DNA of 64,000 nt from Kitasatospora gansuensis. GTDB taxonomy: Bacteria; Actinomycetota; Actinomycetes; Streptomycetales; Streptomycetaceae. A program made the translations under genes and the position numbers. Location: NCBI RefSeq assembly GCF_014203705.1, contig NZ_JACHJR010000001.1:4960001-5024000 (forward strand). The letters are read 5' to 3'. The notes under the pieces are model-generated. The model was not told the origin of the DNA. It worked only from the letters and a program-made list of their open reading frames with translations, and did not search any database. Numbering within the stretch: the stretch's first letter is position 1; the number at the start of each line of letters is the position of its first letter. Below, one piece after another: positions 14,544 to 24,421 of the stretch.

Positions 14544-15218
14544 ATGACCTGTGTGCTGCTGGCCGAGGACGACCCGGCGATCTCCGAACCGCTGGCCCGT
14601 GCGCTCCGACGGGAGGGCTACGAGGTGCTCGTCCGCGAGGAGGGCCCCGGGGCGCTCGCGGCCGGACTCACCGAGGACGTCGACCTGATCGTGCTCGACC
14701 TCGGCCTGCCCGAGATGGACGGTCTCGAGGTGGCCCGCCGGCTCCGCGCCGAGGGCCGGACCTGCCCGGTGCTGGTGCTCACCGCCCGGGCCGACGAGGT
14801 GGACACTGTGGTCGGCCTGGACGCCGGGGCGGACGACTACGTCACCAAGCCGTTCCGGCTGGCCGAGCTGCTGGCCCGGGTCCGGGCCCTGCTCCGGCGC
14901 GGCAACGTGGACCAGCTGACCACCGGCGCGCACGGCGTGAAGATCGACATCGAGTCGCACCGCGCCTGGCTGGGTGAGGAGGAGCTGACCCTCTCCGCCA
15001 AGGAGTTCGAGCTGCTCCGGGTGCTGGTCCGGGACGCCGGCCGGGTGGTCACCCGGGAGGAGATCATGCGGCAGGTCTGGGACACCACCTGGTGGACCTC
15101 GACCAAGACCCTGGACATGCACATCTCCTGGCTGCGCAAGAAGCTCGGCGACGACGCGGCCAACCCGCGCTACATCTCCACCGTCCGCGGCGTCGGCTTC
15201 CGCTTCGAGAAGAACTGA
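14544..15218 (+). CDS. OmpR/PhoB-family response regulator
   Basis: This 224-residue protein has a receiver domain (acidic EDD near residue 9, phospho-acceptor Asp in LIVLDLGLPEMDG, Lys in YVTKPF) and a C-terminal winged helix (LSAKEFELLRVLVRDAGRVVTREEI through TVRGVGFRFEKN). It is the cytoplasmic, DNA-binding half of the two-component system with the kinase that starts 17 bases downstream. The ATG at 14544 directly precedes the receiver fold. The regulon is unknown; a target outside the operon is likely because the convergent GtrA gene and the purine genes are not typical targets. Confidence 0.92.
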   Translation: MTCVLLAEDDPAISEPLARALRREGYEVLVREEGPGALAAGLTEDVDLIVLDLGLPEMDGLEVARRLRAEGRTCPVLVLTARADEVDTVVGLDAGADDYVTKPFRLAELLARVRALLRRGNVDQLTTGAHGVKIDIESHRAWLGEEELTLSAKEFELLRVLVRDAGRVVTREEIMRQVWDTTWWTSTKTLDMHISWLRKKLGDDAANPRYISTVRGVGFRFEKN

Positions 15219-15234
15219 TCAGGGGTCAGCCCGC

Positions 15235-16479
15235 GTGAAACGCCGGATGATCAACTCGCTGCTCGGCGTGGTCCTGGTGATGGTGGTGGTGTTCTGCGTC
15301 CCGATCGCGCTGATCGAGAAGCAGTCCATCGTGAACGCCGCCGACGCCCGGGTGGACGCCCAGGCGGTCCGGGTGCTCGGCCTGGTGGAGAGCCGGCTCG
15401 CGGCGCAGGAGCCGATCACCGGGGAGAAGTTCACCGCCCAGCTCCCCGAGGGCGGCTACGTCACCATCGCGGTGCCCGGGCAGCCGGTGCTGGCGATCGG
15501 TACCCCGCCGGGGCCGCCGGTGCTGAGCGCCACCGAGTCCGGCGCCGACGGCGAGACGGTCACCGTGGTGCAGTCCCGCGGCGGGGTGGACCACGAGATC
15601 GCCAACATGCTGCTGCTGCTCGGCGTGGTCGCGCTGCTCGCGGTCCAGGCGGCGGTGGCGCTCGCGGTCTGGCAGGCCAAGCGGCTGGCCCGGCCGCTGG
15701 TCGACCTGGCCGAGACCGCCGAGCGGCTCGGCTCCGGCGACCCGCGGCCCCGGGACCGCCGGTACGGCGTCCCCGAGCTGGACCGGGTGGCCGAGGTGCT
15801 GGACGCCAGCGCCGAGCGGATCGCCCGGATGCTCTCCGCCGAGCGCCGGCTCTCCGCCGACGCCTCGCACCAGCTCCGCACCCCGCTCACCGCGCTCTCG
15901 ATGCGGCTGGAGGAGATCAACACACTGGCGAGCGAGCCGGACACCGTGAAGGAGGAGTCCACCATCGCGCTCCAGCAGGTGGAACGGCTCACCGACGTGG
16001 TGCAGCGGCTGCTCACCAACCAGCGCGACCCGCGCAGCCCCACGGCGGTGGTCTTCGAGCTGGACGAGGTGGTCAAGCAGCAGCTGGCCGAGTGGAGCCC
16101 GACCATGCGCGGCACCGGCCGCACCCTGCGGGTCGAGGGCCTGCGCGAGGTCCGGGTGCTGGGCACGCCGGGGATGGTGGCCCAGGTGCTGGCCACCCTG
16201 ATCGAGAACTCGCTGATGCACGGCGCCGGGACGGTCATCGTCCGGGCCAGGCCGTCCGGCCGTTCGGTGGTGGTCGAGGTGCAGGACGAGGGCCCCGGCG
16301 TACCGACCGAGCTGGGCAACCGGGTCTTCGAACGGGCCGTCAGCGGCCGCAACTCCACCGGCATCGGCCTCGCGGTGGCCCGGGACCTGGCCGAGGCGGA
16401 CGGGGCGCGGCTGGAGCTGCTCTCGCTCCAGCCGCCGGTCTTCGCGCTCTTCCTCACCCGGGCGGACGAGGAGAACTGA
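15235..16479 (+). CDS. Sensor histidine kinase (HAMP-HisKA-HATPase)
   Basis: The 414-residue kinase has a first membrane helix (residues 5-25), a short extracytoplasmic segment, a second helix (about 125-145), and a HAMP-like linker ending near 190. The H-box is ADASHQLRTPLTALSMRLEE, and the HATPase domain has an N-box (TLIENSLMHG) and G-boxes (VQDEGPGV, STGIGLAVARDLAE). The H-box has HQLRTP instead of the common HELRTP, as in some streptomycete kinases. It forms an operon with the preceding regulator. The small sensor domain suggests that it senses a membrane or envelope signal. Confidence 0.92.
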   Translation: MKRRMINSLLGVVLVMVVVFCVPIALIEKQSIVNAADARVDAQAVRVLGLVESRLAAQEPITGEKFTAQLPEGGYVTIAVPGQPVLAIGTPPGPPVLSATESGADGETVTVVQSRGGVDHEIANMLLLLGVVALLAVQAAVALAVWQAKRLARPLVDLAETAERLGSGDPRPRDRRYGVPELDRVAEVLDASAERIARMLSAERRLSADASHQLRTPLTALSMRLEEINTLASEPDTVKEESTIALQQVERLTDVVQRLLTNQRDPRSPTAVVFELDEVVKQQLAEWSPTMRGTGRTLRVEGLREVRVLGTPGMVAQVLATLIENSLMHGAGTVIVRARPSGRSVVVEVQDEGPGVPTELGNRVFERAVSGRNSTGIGLAVARDLAEADGARLELLSLQPPVFALFLTRADEEN

Positions 16480-17203: not shown

Positions 17204-18361
17204 GTGACTTTCGCGGGCAATGCAAATTTTCCAGTGGTGGGCATGATCGGCGGCGGCCAGCTCGCCCGGATGGCGCACCAGGCGGGCATCCCGCTGGGGA
17301 TCCGCTTCCGGCTCCTCGCCGACACCCCTCAGGACTCCGCCGCACAGGTGGTCTCCGACGTGGTGCTCGGTGACTACCGGGACCTCGACACCCTGCGCCG
17401 CTTCGCGGCCGGGTGCGACGTGATCACCTTCGACCACGAGCACGTGCCGACCGAGCACCTGCGCGCCCTGCAGGCCGACGGCATCGCCGTCCGCCCGGGC
17501 CCGGAGGCCCTGGTCAATGCCCAGGACAAGGGTGTGATGCGGGCCAAGCTGGACTCGATCGGCGTGCCCTGCCCCCGGCACCGGCTGGTCGCCGACCCGG
17601 CCGACGTGACCGCCTTCGCGAACGAGGGCGACGGCTACCCGGTCGTACTGAAGACGGTGCGCGGCGGCTACGACGGCAAGGGCGTCTGGGTCGTCGACGA
17701 CGAGACCCAGGCGCAGGCCCCGTTCCTCGCGGGTGTGCCGGTGCTGGCCGAGGAGAAGGTCGACTTCCTCCGTGAGCTGGCCGCCAACGTGGTCCGCTCG
17801 CCCAGCGGCCAGGCGGTCGCCTACCCGGTGGTGGAGAGCGTCCAGGAGAACGGCGTCTGCGCCGAGGTCACCGCCCCCGCGCCCGAGCTCGACCCCGCGC
17901 TCTCCGACGAGGCCCAGCAGCTGGCCCTGCGGATCGCCGGCGAGCTGGACATCACCGGCCACCTCGCGGTCGAGCTGTTCCAGACCCGGGACGGCCGGAT
18001 CCTGGTCAACGAGCTGGCCATGCGGCCGCACAACTCCGGCCACTGGACCCAGGACGGCGCCGTCACCTCGCAGTTCGAGAACCACCTGCGGGCCGTCCTC
18101 GACCTCCCGCTCGGCGACCCGCGCCCGCGCGCCAAGTGGACCGTGATGGTCAACGTGCTCGGCGGCGACTACCCGGACATGTACCACGCCTTCCTGCACT
18201 GCATGGCCCGCGACCCCGGCCTGCGGATCCACATGTACGGGAAGGACGTGAAGCCCGGCCGCAAGGTCGGCCACGTCAACGTCTTCGGGGACGACCTCGA
18301 AGACGTCCGCGAGCGCGCCCGTCACGCGGCCGCCTACCTGCGAGGAACGATCACCGAATGA
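17204..18361 (+). CDS. purK: 5-(carboxyamino)imidazole ribonucleotide synthase
   Basis: This 385-residue ATP-grasp enzyme makes N5-CAIR from AIR, ATP and bicarbonate in purine synthesis. Seen are [13 protein letters not shown] at the N-terminus, the ATP-grasp lysine region [15 protein letters not shown], the central [19 protein letters not shown], and the C-terminal [18 protein letters not shown] at 17204 is chosen because it starts just before the nucleotide fold; the frame is open far upstream, but that stretch is the GtrA promoter and antisense region. The stop overlaps the purE start (ATGA), so PurK and PurE are translationally coupled. Confidence 0.96.
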
Positions 18362-18882
18362 CTCAGCCCGTTATCGGCATCGTCATGGGCTCCGACTCCG
18401 ACTGGCCCGTGATGGAGGCCGCCGCCCAGGCGCTCGACGAGTTCGAGATCCCGTACGAGGTCGACGTGATGTCCGCGCACCGGATGCCGCGCGAGATGAT
18501 CGCGTACGGCGAGCAGGCGCACACCCGGGGCCTGAAGGCGATCATCGCGGGCGCGGGCGGCGCCGCCCACCTGCCGGGCATGCTCGCCTCGGTCACCCCG
18601 CTGCCGGTGATCGGCGTGCCGGTGCCGCTGCGCTACCTGGACGGCATGGACAGCCTGCTGTCGATCGTTCAGATGCCCGCCGGGGTGCCGGTCGCCACCG
18701 TCTCGGTCGCCGGGGCCCGCAACGCCGGGCTGCTGGCGGTCCGGATCGTGGCCGCCTTCGACCCCGAGCTGACCGAGAAGATGACCGAGTTCCAGGCCGA
18801 GCTGAACAGCCAGGCCACCGAGAAGGGCAAGAAGCTGCGCGCCAAGGTGGCGGGCTCCAGCTCCTTCGGTTTCGGTAAGTAA
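18358..18882 (+). CDS. purE: N5-carboxyaminoimidazole ribonucleotide mutase
   Basis: This 174-residue protein is class I PurE, which rearranges N5-CAIR to CAIR after PurK. Motifs are [14 protein letters not shown] (phosphate loop), SAHRMP with the catalytic His, [14 protein letters not shown], and [21 protein letters not shown]. Length is normal for the octameric bacterial enzyme, with a Lys-rich C-terminal tail. It directly follows purK in a two-gene unit. A TAXI lipoprotein gene begins only 4 bases after its TAA, and could be reached by read-through. Confidence 0.97.
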
Positions 18883-18886
18883 GACG

Positions 18887-19819
18887 TTGTTACTGTCACG
18901 CCGGGCGGCCCTCGCGCTGGGGGCCGCCGCGGTGCTGACGGGATGTTCGGCGCCCGCGCCGCGCGGGGTGCTGCGGCTGGCGGCCGGCCCCGAGGGCGGG
19001 CCGTACCAGACCTTCGGCCGGCGGCTCGCCGAGGAGATCGGGCAGGCCCACCCCGGCCTGACCGTCGAGGTGCTGGCGACGGCCGCGAGCGTGCGCAACC
19101 TGCGGCTGATCGGCGAGGGCGGGGCCGAGCTGGGGCTGACCCTGGCCGACAGCGCGGCCGACGCGGTGGCCGGGCGGGGGACCTTCGGCCGGCCGGTCAC
19201 GGTGACCGCGATCGCCCGGCTGTACCTCAACTACCTGCACCTGGTGGTCCCTTCGGACCGGCCGGTGTCGAGCGTCGGTGAGCTGACCGGACGCAGGTAC
19301 TCGCTGGGCGCGACCGGATCCGGCACCGCCGTGGTGGCCGAACGGGTGCTGACCGCCGCCGGGTTGAGCACCGCGGGTGCCCAACTGCTCGGCCCGGCCG
19401 AGTCGGTGGCGGCGCTGCGGGCCGGGGAACTGGACGCGTTCTTCTGGTCCGGCGGCGTGCCGACCCGGGCGATCACCGAGCTGGCCGAGCGGCTGCCGGT
19501 CCGGCTGGTCCCGCTGGCGGCGCAGGCGGCCGCGCTGCGGGTCGCGTACGGGCCGGTGTACGAGAACGTCTCGATCCCGCTCGGCGCCTACCGCCAGCCG
19601 GGGCCGACCCCGACCGTCGGCACCCCGAGCTACCTGGTCTGCGCCGCCGGGCTCGACCCGGAGATCGTGCGGGCCGTCACCGAGGTGCTGTTCCGCCGCC
19701 GGGACCACCTGCAGACCCCGGACGCGCCGGGCGGGCGGCTGGACGAGCGGTACGCGATCGGCACCGGCACCGTCCCGCTGCACCCGGGCGCGGCCGAGTA
19801 CTACCGCTCGGTCTACTGA
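18887..19819 (+). CDS. TAXI-family solute-binding lipoprotein (with a TTA codon at codon 2)
   Basis: This 310-residue protein has a lipoprotein signal peptide (SRRAALALGAAAVLTGC, lipobox LTGC) and the TAXI TRAP solute-binding fold, seen in AAGPEGGPYQTFGRRLAEEI, LGATGSGTAVVAERVL and LDAFFWSGGVPTRAI. TAXI proteins bind dicarboxylates, glutamate or similar acids. No TRAP permease subunit is nearby; instead the gene converges on a kinase/regulator pair and a dicarboxylate-type MFS permease. No ATG or GTG can start it: the only start upstream of the twin-Arg n-region is TTG at 18887, and the next codon is TTA (18890-18892). TTA is rare in streptomycetes and is read by the developmentally controlled bldA tRNA. 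The 3' end overlaps the kinase by 7 bases. Confidence 0.87.
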   Translation: MLLSRRAALALGAAAVLTGCSAPAPRGVLRLAAGPEGGPYQTFGRRLAEEIGQAHPGLTVEVLATAASVRNLRLIGEGGAELGLTLADSAADAVAGRGTFGRPVTVTAIARLYLNYLHLVVPSDRPVSSVGELTGRRYSLGATGSGTAVVAERVLTAAGLSTAGAQLLGPAESVAALRAGELDAFFWSGGVPTRAITELAERLPVRLVPLAAQAAALRVAYGPVYENVSIPLGAYRQPGPTPTVGTPSYLVCAAGLDPEIVRAVTEVLFRRRDHLQTPDAPGGRLDERYAIGTGTVPLHPGAAEYYRSVY

Positions 19820-21147
19820 GCGAGCGTCAACTCGACCACCAGGCCCGACGGTTGGTTCGGCAGCAGGGCGAGCGTGCCGCCGCAGCCGCGGGCCAGTTCG
19901 ACCGCGATGGCGAGCCCCAGGCCGCTGCCGGTGACGTTGCGCTGCTCCGGCGCCCGCCAGAACCGGCCGAGCGCCGCCCGGCGGCCGGTCTCGTCCAGCC
20001 CGGGGCCGTCGTCGGCGATCCGCAGCACCCGGCCGGTCAGCGAGACCTCGACCCGGCCACCGGGCGGGACGAACTTCGCCGCGTTGTCGAGCGCGATGTC
20101 GGCGATCCGGGCCACGGCGGCGGGCAGCGGCTCCGGGTCCGGCACGTGCACGGTGAGGGTCAGGCCCTTGGCGGCGTACAGCTCCTGCCAGCCCGTCAGC
20201 CGGGCGAGCAGCCGGTCGGCCGGCAGGGTCTCCGGCAGCCCGGCGTCGGCCTCCACCCGGGCGAGCGTCAGCAGGTCCTCCAACAGGGCCTCCAGCCGGT
20301 CGAGTTCGGCCAGCGCTTGCTGCCACTCGGGGTGTCCCTCGGCGGTCAGGAACGGCTCCAGGTTCTCCAGTCGCAGCGAGAGCACGGTGAGCGGGGTGCG
20401 CAGTTCGTGCGAGGCGTCCGCGACGAAGGCGCGCTGGCGTTCCACGGCGACCGAGATGGCGTCCGCCATGGCGTTGAACCGCTCCTCCAGGCGGCGCAGT
20501 TCGACCGGGCCGCGTACGGTGCCGATCCGGGCGCCGAGCCGTCCCGCGGCGATCTCCCGGGTGGTGCGGTCGAGTTCGCCGACCGGCCGGAGCACCCAGC
20601 CGGTCAGCCTGCGGGCGGCGACCAGCGAGCAGAGCAGCGCCAGTACCGAGCCGACCGCCAGCGCGCCCCAGACCACGGCCACCGAGCGACGGGCCGCCGC
20701 AGTGGACACCCGCAGCACCACCACCCCGGACACCTGGTCGTCCCGCCCGGCCGGTTCGGCGACCAGCACCGAGGCCGGGCCGAACGGGGTGAGCAGCGGC
20801 AGCCCGTCGGTGGTCCGGCCGGACAGCGCCCGCCCGGCCGCCCCGCCCCCGTCCACCCGGTCCCCGCCGACCGGGGTGCCCGCGATCAACTGCCCGTCCC
20901 GGTCCCGGATCTCCACCGCCGTGCCGTACAGCTCCGCGTACCGGGCCACCTCCGCCGCCAGCCCGGACGGGCCGCCCTCGCGCAGCGCCCGGTCGGTGAG
21001 CTCGGCGAACCGGGTGGCGTCCGCCCGGCGGGCGAGCAGCAGCTGCCCGGTCCGGTGCGAGGACCAGGCCAGCGCGAGCGGGACCGCCAGCGCCGCCACC
21101 AGGCAGCCGATCAGCAGGAGCTGGACCACCAGCAGCCGACGCTGCAT
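19813..21147 (-). CDS. Sensor histidine kinase (HAMP-HisKA-HATPase) beside TAXI protein
   Basis: This 444-residue kinase has a first helix at residues 5-27, an extracytoplasmic domain of about 125 residues, a second helix (about 158-180), HAMP (TGWVLRPVGELDRTTREIAAGRLGARI as separate segments), an H-box ADASHELRTPLTVL, an N-box (DIALDNAAKFV) and G-boxes (RIADDGPGLDE, GSGLGLAIAVELA). Its ATG overlaps the response-regulator stop by one base. The outer domain is large enough to bind a small ligand or a loaded binding protein. I infer that it is the receptor partner of the convergent TAXI lipoprotein. Confidence 0.92.
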   Translation of the reverse strand: MQRRLLVVQLLLIGCLVAALAVPLALAWSSHRTGQLLLARRADATRFAELTDRALREGGPSGLAAEVARYAELYGTAVEIRDRDGQLIAGTPVGGDRVDGGGAAGRALSGRTTDGLPLLTPFGPASVLVAEPAGRDDQVSGVVVLRVSTAAARRSVAVVWGALAVGSVLALLCSLVAARRLTGWVLRPVGELDRTTREIAAGRLGARIGTVRGPVELRRLEERFNAMADAISVAVERQRAFVADASHELRTPLTVLSLRLENLEPFLTAEGHPEWQQALAELDRLEALLEDLLTLARVEADAGLPETLPADRLLARLTGWQELYAAKGLTLTVHVPDPEPLPAAVARIADIALDNAAKFVPPGGRVEVSLTGRVLRIADDGPGLDETGRRAALGRFWRAPEQRNVTGSGLGLAIAVELARGCGGTLALLPNQPSGLVVELTLAQ

Positions 21148-21809
21148 CAGCCGGTGCCGAGCCGGTAGCCGGTGGCCCGGAGCGTCTCGACCAGCCGCGG
21201 GCGGCCGGTCTTGGAGCGGATACCGGCGATGTGCACGTCCAGCGAGCGGGAGGCCGACAGCTGGACGTCGCCCCAGAGTTCGTCCAGGATCTCCTCCCGG
21301 CCGCGCACCACGCCGGGCTCGCGGGCGAGCACGGCCAGCACGTCGAACTCCCGGCGGGTGAGCGCGACCGGCTCCCCGGCCACGGTGACCCGCCGGGTCT
21401 CCAGGTCGATCCGGACGTCGCCGATCTGCGCCACCCGGCCGGTCACCGCCAGCGGCCGGGTGCCGCGCCGGACCACGGCGGCCATCCTGGCGGCCAGTTC
21501 GGCGGTCCGGAACGGCTTGGCCAGGTAGTCGTCGGCGCCCGAGCGCAGGCCGCGCAGGATGTCCCGCTCCTCGGTCCTGGCGGTCAGCACGATCACCGGC
21601 ACGCTGGACACCCGGCGCAGTCGGCGCAGCAGTTCGAGCCCGTCCAGGTCGGGCAGGCCCAGATCGAGCAGCACGAACTCGCAGGTGTCCTTCAGCCGGA
21701 ACGCGTCGTCCGCCCGCCCGGCCCGGACCACCTGGTGGCCGTGCCGGGCGAGCGCCGGGACCAGGGCGGCGGCAAGACGGTCGTCGTCCTCGACCAGAAG
21801 CACGCGCAT
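21147..21809 (-). CDS. OmpR/PhoB-family response regulator
   Basis: This 220-residue regulator has a receiver (acidic VEDDDR, phospho-acceptor in FVLLDLGLPDLDG, Lys in YLAKPF) and a winged helix (LTRREFDVLAVLAREPGVVRGREEILDEL as separate segments, ending TLRATGYRLGTG). It is coupled to the kinase downstream. The MFS permease gene lies just downstream on the same strand in map position but upstream in transcription: it ends at 21819, 10 bases before the regulator ATG at 21809. The three genes (permease, regulator, kinase) can therefore form one minus-strand operon. Confidence 0.92.
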   Translation of the reverse strand: MRVLLVEDDDRLAAALVPALARHGHQVVRAGRADDAFRLKDTCEFVLLDLGLPDLDGLELLRRLRRVSSVPVIVLTARTEERDILRGLRSGADDYLAKPFRTAELAARMAAVVRRGTRPLAVTGRVAQIGDVRIDLETRRVTVAGEPVALTRREFDVLAVLAREPGVVRGREEILDELWGDVQLSASRSLDVHIAGIRSKTGRPRLVETLRATGYRLGTG

Positions 21810-21818
21810 GCGCCCACC

Positions 21819-23120
21819 CTAGGCGGGGACCGCCGCCTTGGTGGCCGGTCGGCTGCCCTCGGTGAGCTCGTTGTCCCTGGTCTCACGCATCGTCAGGTAG
21901 ACCACCAGGGAGACCGCCGCCAGCGCGGAGACGTACCAGTAGTAGCCCGACTCGACGCCCGCGTCCTTGAACCAGAGCGCCACGTACTCGGCCGTGCCGC
22001 CGAACAGCGCGTTGGCCAGCGCGTACGGCAGCGCCACCCCGAGCGCCCGGATCTGGGTCGGGAACAGCTCGGCCTTCACCACGGCGTTGATCGAGGTGTA
22101 GCCGGTGACGATGACCAGCGCGGTCACCGCGAGCAGCAGCGCCCCGCCGAAGCTGCCGGTGTGCGAGAGCGTGGTCATCAGCGGCACCGTGCCGAAGGTG
22201 GCGCCGACCCCGAAGGTGATCAGCAGTGGTCGGCGGCCGATCCGGTCGGAGAGCGAACCGGCCAGCGGCTGCAGCAGCATGAAGACGGTCAGCGCGCAGA
22301 AGCTGACCAAGGCGGCGTCGTTCTTGCTCAGCCCGACGGTGTTGGAGAGGTACTTGGTCAGGTAGGTGGTGTAGGTGTAGTACGCCACCGTGCCGCCCAT
22401 GGTCAGCGCCATCACCAGGGCGAACTCCCGCTTGTGCGCCAGCAGTCGGCGCAGCGTGCCGCGTTCGGTCTCCGTGCCCTCGAGCTCCGTGTACGCCTCG
22501 GTCTCCACCAGGTTGCGCCGCAGCCAGAACACCACCGCCGCGCCGAGCGCCCCCGCGACGAACGGGATCCGCCAGCCGTACGAGTGCAGGTCGGCCGTGG
22601 TCATGGTGTGCTGGAGCACGATCTGCAGCCCCAGGCCGAGCAGTTGACCGAAGGTCATCGAGACGTACTGGAAGCTGGAGACGAAGCCGCGGCGGCCGGG
22701 GGTGGACGCCTCGGTCAGGTAGGTGGCGCTGGCCGCGTACTCGCCGCCGACCGACAGGCCCTGCAGCAGCCGGGCGATCAGCAGCACCACGGCGCCCGCG
22801 TAGCCGACCTGCTCGTACGTCGGGGCGATCGCGATCAGCAGGGCGCTGACCGACATCAGCGACACGGTCAGGGTCAGCGCCGCCTTCCGGCCGCGCCGGT
22901 CCGCGTACCGGCCGAGCAGCCAGCCGCCGACCGGGCGCATGAAGAAGCCGACCGCGAAGATGCCCGCGGTGTTGAGGAGTTGGGCGGTCGGATTGCCGTG
23001 CGGGAAGAACGCCGAGGCGAAGTAGGTGGCGAAGCTGGCGTAGACGAACCAGTCGTACCACTCGACCAGATTGCCGACCGAGCCGCCGATCACGGCCTTC
23101 CAGGGTGTCGCTGACTTCAT
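21819..23120 (-). CDS. MFS transporter, metabolite:H+ symporter (KgtP/dicarboxylate-like)
   Basis: This 433-residue, 12-helix permease belongs to the MHS group. It has the characteristic N-terminus GGSVGNLVEWYDWFVYASF, the A-motif GRYADRRGRKAALT, the RLLQGLSVGGEY motif with EASTPGRRGF, and the second A-motif LSDRIGRRP. MHS members import alpha-ketoglutarate, citrate, proline or related organic acids with protons. ATG at 23120 is preceded by GGGAG; an upstream start at 23171 is open but has no better site and would add an unusual tail. First gene of an apparent permease-regulator-kinase operon. Confidence 0.9.
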   Translation of the reverse strand: MKSATPWKAVIGGSVGNLVEWYDWFVYASFATYFASAFFPHGNPTAQLLNTAGIFAVGFFMRPVGGWLLGRYADRRGRKAALTLTVSLMSVSALLIAIAPTYEQVGYAGAVVLLIARLLQGLSVGGEYAASATYLTEASTPGRRGFVSSFQYVSMTFGQLLGLGLQIVLQHTMTTADLHSYGWRIPFVAGALGAAVVFWLRRNLVETEAYTELEGTETERGTLRRLLAHKREFALVMALTMGGTVAYYTYTTYLTKYLSNTVGLSKNDAALVSFCALTVFMLLQPLAGSLSDRIGRRPLLITFGVGATFGTVPLMTTLSHTGSFGGALLLAVTALVIVTGYTSINAVVKAELFPTQIRALGVALPYALANALFGGTAEYVALWFKDAGVESGYYWYVSALAAVSLVVYLTMRETRDNELTEGSRPATKAAVPA

Positions 23121-23245
23121 GGGGTCGCTCCCGGGTGGGTGGAGGGTTCCGCTGTGCCTCGCAGCGTCCATCAGGGTGAGCGGACCGGCCCAGAGCGTCG
23201 GCAGAGAACTAACCTCCGGTTAACAGAGGCGGTAGAACTGAAGGT

Positions 23246-24421
23246 ATGACTACCGAACTGCTGGCCCGAGCTCGTGAGCTTCTCCGAACCGCACCCGTGG
23301 TGGACGGTCACAACGACCTGCCGTGGGCGATGCGTGCCCAGGTGGGGTACGACCTCGACGCCGTGGACCTGACGACCGATCAGCGATCCCGGCTGCACAC
23401 CGACTTCGGCCGGCTCCGGGAAGGCGGGGTCGGCGCGCAGTTCTGGTCGGTGTACGTGCGCTCCGACTACGCGGGCGACCAGGCCGTCAGCGCCACCCTG
23501 GAGCAGATCGACTTCGTCCGGACGCTGACCGAGCGCTACCCGGACCACCTGCGGCTCGCGCTCACCGCCGAGGACATGGAGACGGCGCGGCGCGAGGGCC
23601 GGATCGCCTCGCTGATGGGCGCCGAGGGCGGACACTCGATCAACTCCTCGATGGCCACCCTGCGCGTGCTCCACGAGCTCGGCGTCCGCTATCTGACGCT
23701 CACCCACAACGACAACGTGCCGTGGGCCGACTCGGCCACCGACAAGCCCGAGCACGGCGGCCTGACCGAGTTCGGCGAGGAGGTGGTGCGGGAGATGAAC
23801 CGGCTCGGCATGCTGGTCGACCTCTCGCACGTCTCCGCCGACACCATGCGGGACGCCCTGCGGGTCACCGAGGCGCCGGTGATCTTCTCGCACTCCTCGG
23901 CCCGGGGGGTCTGCGACCACCCGCGCAACATCCCCGACGACGTGCTGGCCCAGCTGGCCGCCAACGGGGGCGTCGCGATGGTCACCTTCGTGCCCAAGTT
24001 CATCCTGCCCGCCGCGATCGAGTGGACCGTCGACGCCGATCAGAACATGCGGGCGCACGGCTTCCACCCGTTGGAGACCACCCCCGAGGCGATGGCCGTG
24101 CAGCACGCCTTCGAGGCCGCCCACCCCCGCCCGGTCGCCACCGTGGCCACCGTCGCCGACCACCTCGACCACATGCGGCAGCTGGCCGGGATCGACCACC
24201 TCGGCATCGGCGGCGACTTCGACGGCACCGCCTTCACCCCGGCCGGCCTGGACGACGTCGCCGGCTACCCGCACCTGATCGCCGAACTGCTCGGCCGGGG
24301 CTGGTCGGAGACCGACCTGGCGAAGCTCACCTGGCACAACGCGGTCCGGGTGCTGCGGCACGCGGAGGCGGTGGCCCGCGACCTGCGGGCCGTCCGGCGG
24401 CCCTCGATCGCCACTCTCTAG
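23246..24421 (+). CDS. Membrane dipeptidase (M19), renal-dipeptidase homologue
   Basis: This 391-residue binuclear-zinc dipeptidase matches the streptomycete homologue of human renal dipeptidase; the S. coelicolor enzyme Sco3058 is structurally characterised and accepts L-Xaa-D-Xaa dipeptides. Metal residues are visible: H22 and D24 in DGHNDLPW, the bridging Glu in LMGAEGGHS, His in VDLSHVS and IFSHSSARG, and Asp in IGGDFDG. There is no signal peptide, so it is cytoplasmic, unlike the GPI-anchored mammalian enzyme. The start context GAAGGTATG supports ATG 23246. An inverted repeat TAACC-tcc-GGTTA lies at 23210-23222. Confidence 0.94.

Follow-up and report, generated by a model that had tools for sequence, protein, structure and literature searches.

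What does a TAXI solute-binding protein do in a genome that holds no TRAP permease, and why does its gene run up against those of a sensor kinase, a response regulator and an organic-acid permease? The question is raised by a locus at 18887-23120 of a 64,000-nucleotide stretch of Kitasatospora gansuensis DNA (GCF_014203705.1, contig NZ_JACHJR010000001.1, positions 4,960,001 to 5,024,000), which is called the window here and from whose first letter positions are counted. We consider it likely that the four genes are a sensing-uptake module, in which the kinase has the TAXI protein as its extracellular co-receptor and permease expression is activated by the regulator. The original prediction had already proposed one such module, and the co-occurrence of the genes as well as a conserved, single-copy element before the permease speak for it; it had overlooked that the trio of TAXI protein, kinase and regulator is of the GluK/GluR type. 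The genes are as follows.

18887-19819, + strand: TAXI solute-binding lipoprotein, 310 amino acids, member of the sensor clade, MHS-linked type (profile matches, tree, structure model)
19813-21147, - strand: sensor histidine kinase, GluK-type, 444 amino acids (profile matches; model with a predicted local distance difference test score, pLDDT, of 87)
21147-21809, - strand: OmpR-family response regulator, GluR-type, 220 amino acids (profile matches, recognition-helix comparison)
21819-23120, - strand: MHS-family (KgtP-like) permease, leading the permease-regulator-kinase run (profile matches, 14/14 readable loci)

The TAXI gene has a TTG start at 18887 and a stop at 19819, with the purE stop at 18882, 4 bases ahead of the start. 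Its product belongs to the TAXI family by profile score (217 bits for TIGR02122, whose cut-off is 84, and 179 bits for PF16868), and its model (pLDDT 93) has the fold of solved TAXI proteins, the best PDB matches being the glutamate-bound TAXI structures 8u79 and 1us4 (template modelling score 0.83-0.86). Neither DctM (profile search) nor a fused TRAP permease was found in the whole genome, so that the protein is a true orphan and not part of a TAXI-TRAP transporter; nor is the locus a TAXI-GltS pair, the adjoining transporter being of the MHS/MFS kind. The 3' ends of the convergent TAXI and kinase genes share 7 bases (19813-19819), the kinase stop being 19813. Profile searches gave the kinase HAMP, HisKA and HATPase_c domains and the regulator Response_reg and Trans_reg_C domains. 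The original prediction had thus rightly described a TAXI gene without TRAP permease genes, which now holds genome-wide, its 7-base overlap with the kinase gene, and a kinase-regulator pair behind a KgtP-like MHS permease; the best NCBIfam model of the permease is PRK10406, at 475 bits against a cut-off of 550, which places it outside the KgtP subfamily as defined by that model. The likely permease start is 23120, with GGGAG about 10 bases upstream, and an ATG at 23171 was set aside in its favour. A scan for sigma-70 promoters and terminators found none and is uninformative at such a G+C content.

The original prediction expected the four genes to co-occur across genomes, and they do. TAXI, kinase and regulator are found together over six actinobacterial orders, and in the branch to which the window belongs (16 loci) the MHS permease is present in all 14 loci that can be read as far as the permease, i.e., the window and, by our locus numbers, L032-L036, L038-L040, L112 and L114-L117; L113, which ends inside the kinase, and L037, of which the stretch taken does not reach a permease, were left out. 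Among 80 loci from named genomes the kinase lies within 3 kb of the TAXI gene in 69 (60 convergent, 9 codirectional) and within 8 kb in 75, while gluABCD, an ABC importer operon, is found in 58, an MHS permease in 8 and both in none. The codirectional loci are from Leucobacter, Microbacterium, Jiangella and Phytoactinopolyspora, and in the first two the order is regulator-kinase-TAXI-gluABCD, all in one direction. L045 holds kinase, regulator and TAXI, and its transporter was left out as the gene caller gave no genes; in L044, L081, L084 and L093 the sequence breaks off at a contig end or at the end of the stretch taken. In 100 relatives, mostly of one genus and with at most 17 kinase candidates scored per genome, a TAXI gene lies within 3 kb of 72/72 kinases scoring above 200 bits, and a kinase within 3 kb of 74 of the 79 TAXIs (E < 1e-20), 70 of them convergent; the five others are beside TRAP_fused (four) or at a contig edge (one). 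A class-wide draw of 148 genomes gave a TAXI gene within 6 kb of all 35 kinases that score 341 bits or more (33 within 2.1 kb), beside 3 of 7 kinases at 303-336 bits and beside none of the 12 below 300 bits. The 64 TAXIs of this draw have a kinase within 3 kb (40) or 6 kb (2), are beside TRAP_fused (11) or have neither partner (11), the last being weak matches (<160 bits) in ten cases. The eleventh, G182:C26:40431-41315, is a sensor-like TAXI (264 bits) without a kinase within 3 kb, in a genome without a TRAP_fused permease. These counts demonstrate that the gene pairing exceeds chance, and that binder and kinase are genetically paired in a conserved manner, as in BctC/BctE and DctB/DctS.

The TAXI proteins of such loci also form a group of their own. 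In a tree of 93 TAXIs obtained by quick search, 85 rows from kinase-type loci make up one group (Shimodaira-Hasegawa-like approximate likelihood ratio test 99), in which a few rows are without a kinase in reach, and TRAP-linked TAXIs fall outside it; the 15 MHS-linked rows are a single branch (support 100). The tree label gluABCD, carried by 63 rows, was assigned by exclusion and covers some rows where gluABCD was not seen, and exact counts are those of the named-genome loci given above. Three loci (L046, L049, L120) hold both kinds of TAXI, the kinase-adjacent one inside the sensor group and the TRAP-adjacent one outside, so that the trio is seen with three kinds of transporter partner: gluABCD, an MHS permease and a complete TAXI-TRAP system. 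In L046 (4049-10320) a TAXI-TRAP operon is divergent from the adjoining regulator-TAXI-kinase block, and in L118:8557-11538 a single frame of 993 amino acids encodes a TRAP_fused permease naturally fused to a TAXI protein.

The same K. gansuensis genome has a second TAXI gene beside a second kinase, a regulator and an ABC importer (SBP_bac_3 binder, two HEQRo-type permeases), next to miaB. This importer is gluABCD (within C1:2380000-2399500), and the kinase linked to it is 42% identical to that of the window. Across Streptomyces and relatives one meets the same block: TAXI convergent to the kinase, the regulator, and an importer operon in divergent orientation. We infer by synteny that this block corresponds to gluK/gluR-gluABCD of Streptomyces coelicolor, a species not among the compared loci. 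GluK/GluR (SCO5779/SCO5778) is reported to be adjacent to, divergent from and in control of gluABCD (SCO5774-SCO5777) (excerpts of PMC9739842 and PMC10345050); SCO5780, the locus tag that follows on from gluK, was not found by name in the open-access literature. The window has the homologous kinase and OmpR-type regulator without an adjacent gluABCD; its module and the conserved TAXI-GluK-GluR-gluABCD locus are paralogues, and in the module an MHS permease has taken the place of the importer. The purEK setting is limited to the window, L032 (Kitasatospora sp. Root107, a close genome whose TAXI is 93% identical to that of the window), L033 and L034; in L117, L112/L116, L114, L115 and the Streptomyces loci of this branch the block is set elsewhere, so that it stays together while its surroundings change. 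The M19 dipeptidase (23246-24421), DUF1028 and purEK were rejected as module members, being absent beside the block in L117, in the Streptomyces loci and in L112-L116. In L038:9244-10612 (Streptomyces himastatinicus) the kinase match is in two separated pieces, from a break, an insertion or an assembly fault.

Control of the permease by the regulator is suggested by a repeat in front of the permease gene.

23205-23224, - strand: predicted operator for the regulator, GTTAACCGGAGGTTAGTTCT, with GTTA(A/G)C/GTTAG directly repeated at a period of 11 bp; it lies some 85 bp ahead of the permease start

Direct repeats with an 11-bp period are usual for OmpR-family regulators. The element GTTAACCGGACGTTAGCTCT or a variant is present in all 14 permease upstream regions, 13 found by script and one, L115, with one half-site letter different, by eye. 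The best 22-base block in eight divergent loci matched 125/154 letters (mean 93.4 and maximum 103 in 200 shuffles), and column identity over 10 rows is 0.89 inside the element vs 0.54 outside. With up to three mismatches allowed, the window has a single site (0 in 100 shuffles), and so has the 8.3-Mb genome as a whole. The gluR-gluA spacers carry a conserved block of their own (197/264 letters matched over 12 spacers, against no more than 164 in any of 60 shuffles), and a number of them have CTCA half-sites 11 bp apart. The stretch RSLDVHIAGIR of the window regulator, which we take to be its recognition helix, is like the consensus RTLEVHvASLR. The regulator of the window would accordingly be expected, from sequence, to bind the repeat at 23205-23224. 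Because the repeat ends about 21 bases before the start of the divergent M19 dipeptidase gene, both lying within 23205-23246, the dipeptidase may be co-regulated in the group of the window.

Gene identities, the orphan state, co-occurrence, the dedicated sensor-TAXI clade, the transporter swap, the single-copy element and the pocket change described below were computed directly, and from them we infer a TAXI-kinase contact, a direction of signalling, binding of the regulator to the element and a ligand. The membrane-tethered TAXI protein would bind an extracellular carboxylate in its cleft and, loaded and closed, act on the GluK-type kinase by way of its small extracellular domain; phosphorylation of the OmpR-type regulator by the kinase would follow, and the regulator would then bind the 11-bp direct repeat and turn on the permease-regulator-kinase run. 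Two features bear on the contact.

18887-18946, + strand: TAXI signal peptide with lipobox LTGC, Cys20 (sequence)
20704-21051, - strand: residues 33-148 of the kinase, an extracellular domain that may dock the TAXI protein and/or bind the ligand (DSSP of the model, conservation)

The TAXI protein is presumably lipidated at Cys20, going by the general lipobox rule. Streptomyces sensor TAXIs from gluABCD-type loci (L053, L055, L060, L066 and others) often have an N-terminal hydrophobic stretch containing LLxWWL and no lipobox, which suggests an uncleaved membrane anchor in place of the lipid; a lipobox count by a single regular expression was too low, as called starts are often late and LQGC-like forms were disallowed, and was not used. 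In the kinase model (pLDDT 87, predicted template modelling score 0.53) the outer domain has the Cache-like element order a-a-b-b-a-b-b, and the kinases of two relatives gave weak Cache matches below cut-off. A Foldseek search with the whole kinase model gave nothing usable for this domain, kinase-core structures dominating the 50 matches listed. In conservation the domain comes close to the ATPase domain (the top letter has a mean share of 0.63 vs 0.68), with D43, Y70, P121 and P132 invariant. Distances among TAXIs correlate at 0.94 with those of the outer domain and at 0.95 with those of the kinase core; once the core is allowed for, the partial correlation with the outer domain is 0.34 overall (null maximum 0.15) and 0.24 for the gluABCD type, without the MHS branch (null maximum 0.20). 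Co-inheritance of TAXI and kinase is clear, and co-evolution specific to the outer domain is only hinted at.

The ligand may be approached through the pocket. Glutamate bound to VcGluP is reported to have its amino group held by the side chains of Y45, Q93 and E125 and the main chain of M201 (excerpts of PMC11574862), and two of these positions differ in the window.

19142-19144, + strand: TAXI Leu86, at the position of VcGluP Q93, an amino-group contact (alignment)
19229-19231, + strand: TAXI Asn115, at the position of VcGluP E125 (alignment)

Position 125 is Asn in 16/16 MHS-linked TAXIs, and in the 70 readable non-MHS sensor TAXIs it is Asp in 62, Glu in 6 and Asn in 2, both of the latter being Spongiactinospora sensors. 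The TRAP-linked TAXI of L046 matches the adjoining Spongiactinospora sensor TAXI at 11 of 12 pocket positions. The Q93 position is Leu in 11/11 of the nearer MHS branch, and Gln is missing from it in 56 of the 70 non-MHS sensors; a call of glutamate as ligand from this position alone was rejected, as it varies throughout the sensor clade. With the loss of the acidic residue expected to hold the amino group, a 2-oxo or dicarboxylic acid becomes a likelier ligand than glutamate, and the pocket change argues against a glutamate response of the window system. Since PRK10406 is tied to alpha-ketoglutarate transport (PMC4482717, in excerpt), the ligand is perhaps 2-oxoglutarate or a similar acid, an assignment that we favour tentatively.

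Several observations weigh against a TAXI co-receptor controlling the permease. The TAXI gene directly follows purE in the Kitasatospora group of the window (18355-18890 in the window, 4 bases apart), so that it is probably in the purine operon, co-transcribed with purine genes instead of its kinase, and outside the control of the element of the module; the element itself could serve a different regulator. The permease score falls short of the PRK10406 cut-off, kinases at the outer range of the family are partly without a TAXI gene, and correlated evolution of TAXI and outer domain is modest once the kinase core is accounted for. Pocket-based ligand calls are weak because the position that counts most for glutamate in VcGluP, Q93, is variable, and the change at position 125, confined to one clade, may be a single event. 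Finally, GluK itself is reported to bind glutamate in biolayer interferometry and not to recognise glutamine (excerpts of the review PMC9739842), and the need for a co-receptor is thereby weakened, as the TAXI protein may be dispensable. It is conceivable on this last ground that the kinase senses its ligand directly through its own Cache-like domain, to which the invariant D43, Y70, P121 and P132 and the element order would also fit, and that the TAXI protein is a nearby scavenging or buffering binder without a part in signalling. We regard this as unlikely: near-obligate pairing over six orders and in varied arrangements, and a TAXI clade dedicated to it, exceed what a loose helper needs, and the ABC importer already has a binder in gluB.

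The TAXI protein could instead feed substrate to the MHS permease as part of a binding-protein-dependent secondary transporter, for which the TAXI-GltS system proposed in Bordetella pertussis, a TAXI with a non-TRAP secondary transporter, is a precedent (PMC12344293, in excerpt). However, the constant partner of the clade is the kinase and not the transporter, and the kinase link is kept beside an ABC importer with its own binder and beside a TAXI-TRAP system with its own TAXI. MHS permeases are rocker-switch carriers of the MFS. In the excerpts used, PMC12344293 links binders of this kind to transporters of the elevator type, and delivery to the permease is in our estimate very improbable. 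That the four genes are neighbours without a joint function is hardly credible: the position of the TAXI gene behind purE in the Kitasatospora group would fit, but the four-gene block recurs without purE in L117, L112, L114-L116 and Streptomyces loci, and a conserved element precedes the permease.

If the co-receptor reading is extended to the whole clade, GluK/GluR-type glutamate sensing in actinobacteria would be three-component, a possibility towards which we lean. A TAXI branch would have left TRAP transport and become a membrane-tethered receptor subunit of a kinase, anchored as a lipoprotein in the branch of the window and apparently by an uncleaved membrane segment in many Streptomyces, and the unit would have been put to use again with one uptake system or another (gluABCD, MHS permease, TAXI-TRAP), its ligand pocket being retuned. 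A known glutamate-sensing system would then have an unrecognised third sensing part and be able to exchange the transporter that it controls, and the TAXI genes of a genus nearly all without fused TRAP permeases (absent in 58/60 same-genus relatives) would have a role. It would also become possible to test if glutamate is sensed by GluK on its own or by way of a partner, and the transporter swap together with the pocket change is a natural experiment in nutrient-sensing rewiring. GluK is also tied to antibiotic output in S. coelicolor (PMC9739842, in excerpt). A second two-component pair upstream of purEK in the window (14544-16479), with a DraK N-terminal domain (PF18092) in its kinase, is unrelated to the module.

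No paper pairing a TAXI protein with a two-component system was found in the open-access literature, which lacks most subscription papers. The closest known system, GluR-GluK with gluABCD (SCO5778/5779, SCO5774-77), has the type of kinase and OmpR regulator seen in the window, there controlling an adjoining uptake operon, and the syntenic locus of other Streptomyces has a convergent TAXI gene beside gluK; the window differs in having an MHS permease instead of gluABCD and a different pocket, and the excerpts on GluR-GluK do not mention a TAXI protein. DctB is of the DctP-type family and DctS is a CitA-type kinase. DctB-DctS-DctA of Bacillus subtilis likewise combines an accessory extracellular co-receptor, a kinase and a permease in a Gram-positive (PMC6978683, in excerpt), so that the claim of novelty in Gram-positives made by the original prediction can hold for a TAXI protein only; DctB is not a TAXI protein, and the transporter DctA itself belongs to the sensor. 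In BctC-BctE/BctD with BctBA of B. pertussis a citrate-loaded binder is reported to activate the kinase that controls the transporter (excerpts of PMC5812351 and PMC9602780), but BctC is of the TctC family, from a Gram-negative, and serves transport too. TAXI-GltS (BP0403/BP0402) shares a TAXI without TRAP permease adjoining another secondary transporter, and differs in being proposed for transport, without a kinase and with a dimeric three-domain TAXI (PMC12344293). MifS/MifR of Pseudomonas aeruginosa shares two-component control of a PRK10406-type alpha-ketoglutarate permease (PA5530) and differs in its RpoN dependence, and the excerpts describe no binding protein (PMC4482717). Binding-protein co-receptors for kinases are therefore already known, from about ten cases (PMC9602780, in excerpt); if the proposed module holds, what would be new is a TAXI protein in that role, and TAXI would join the solute-binding families that signal through kinases.

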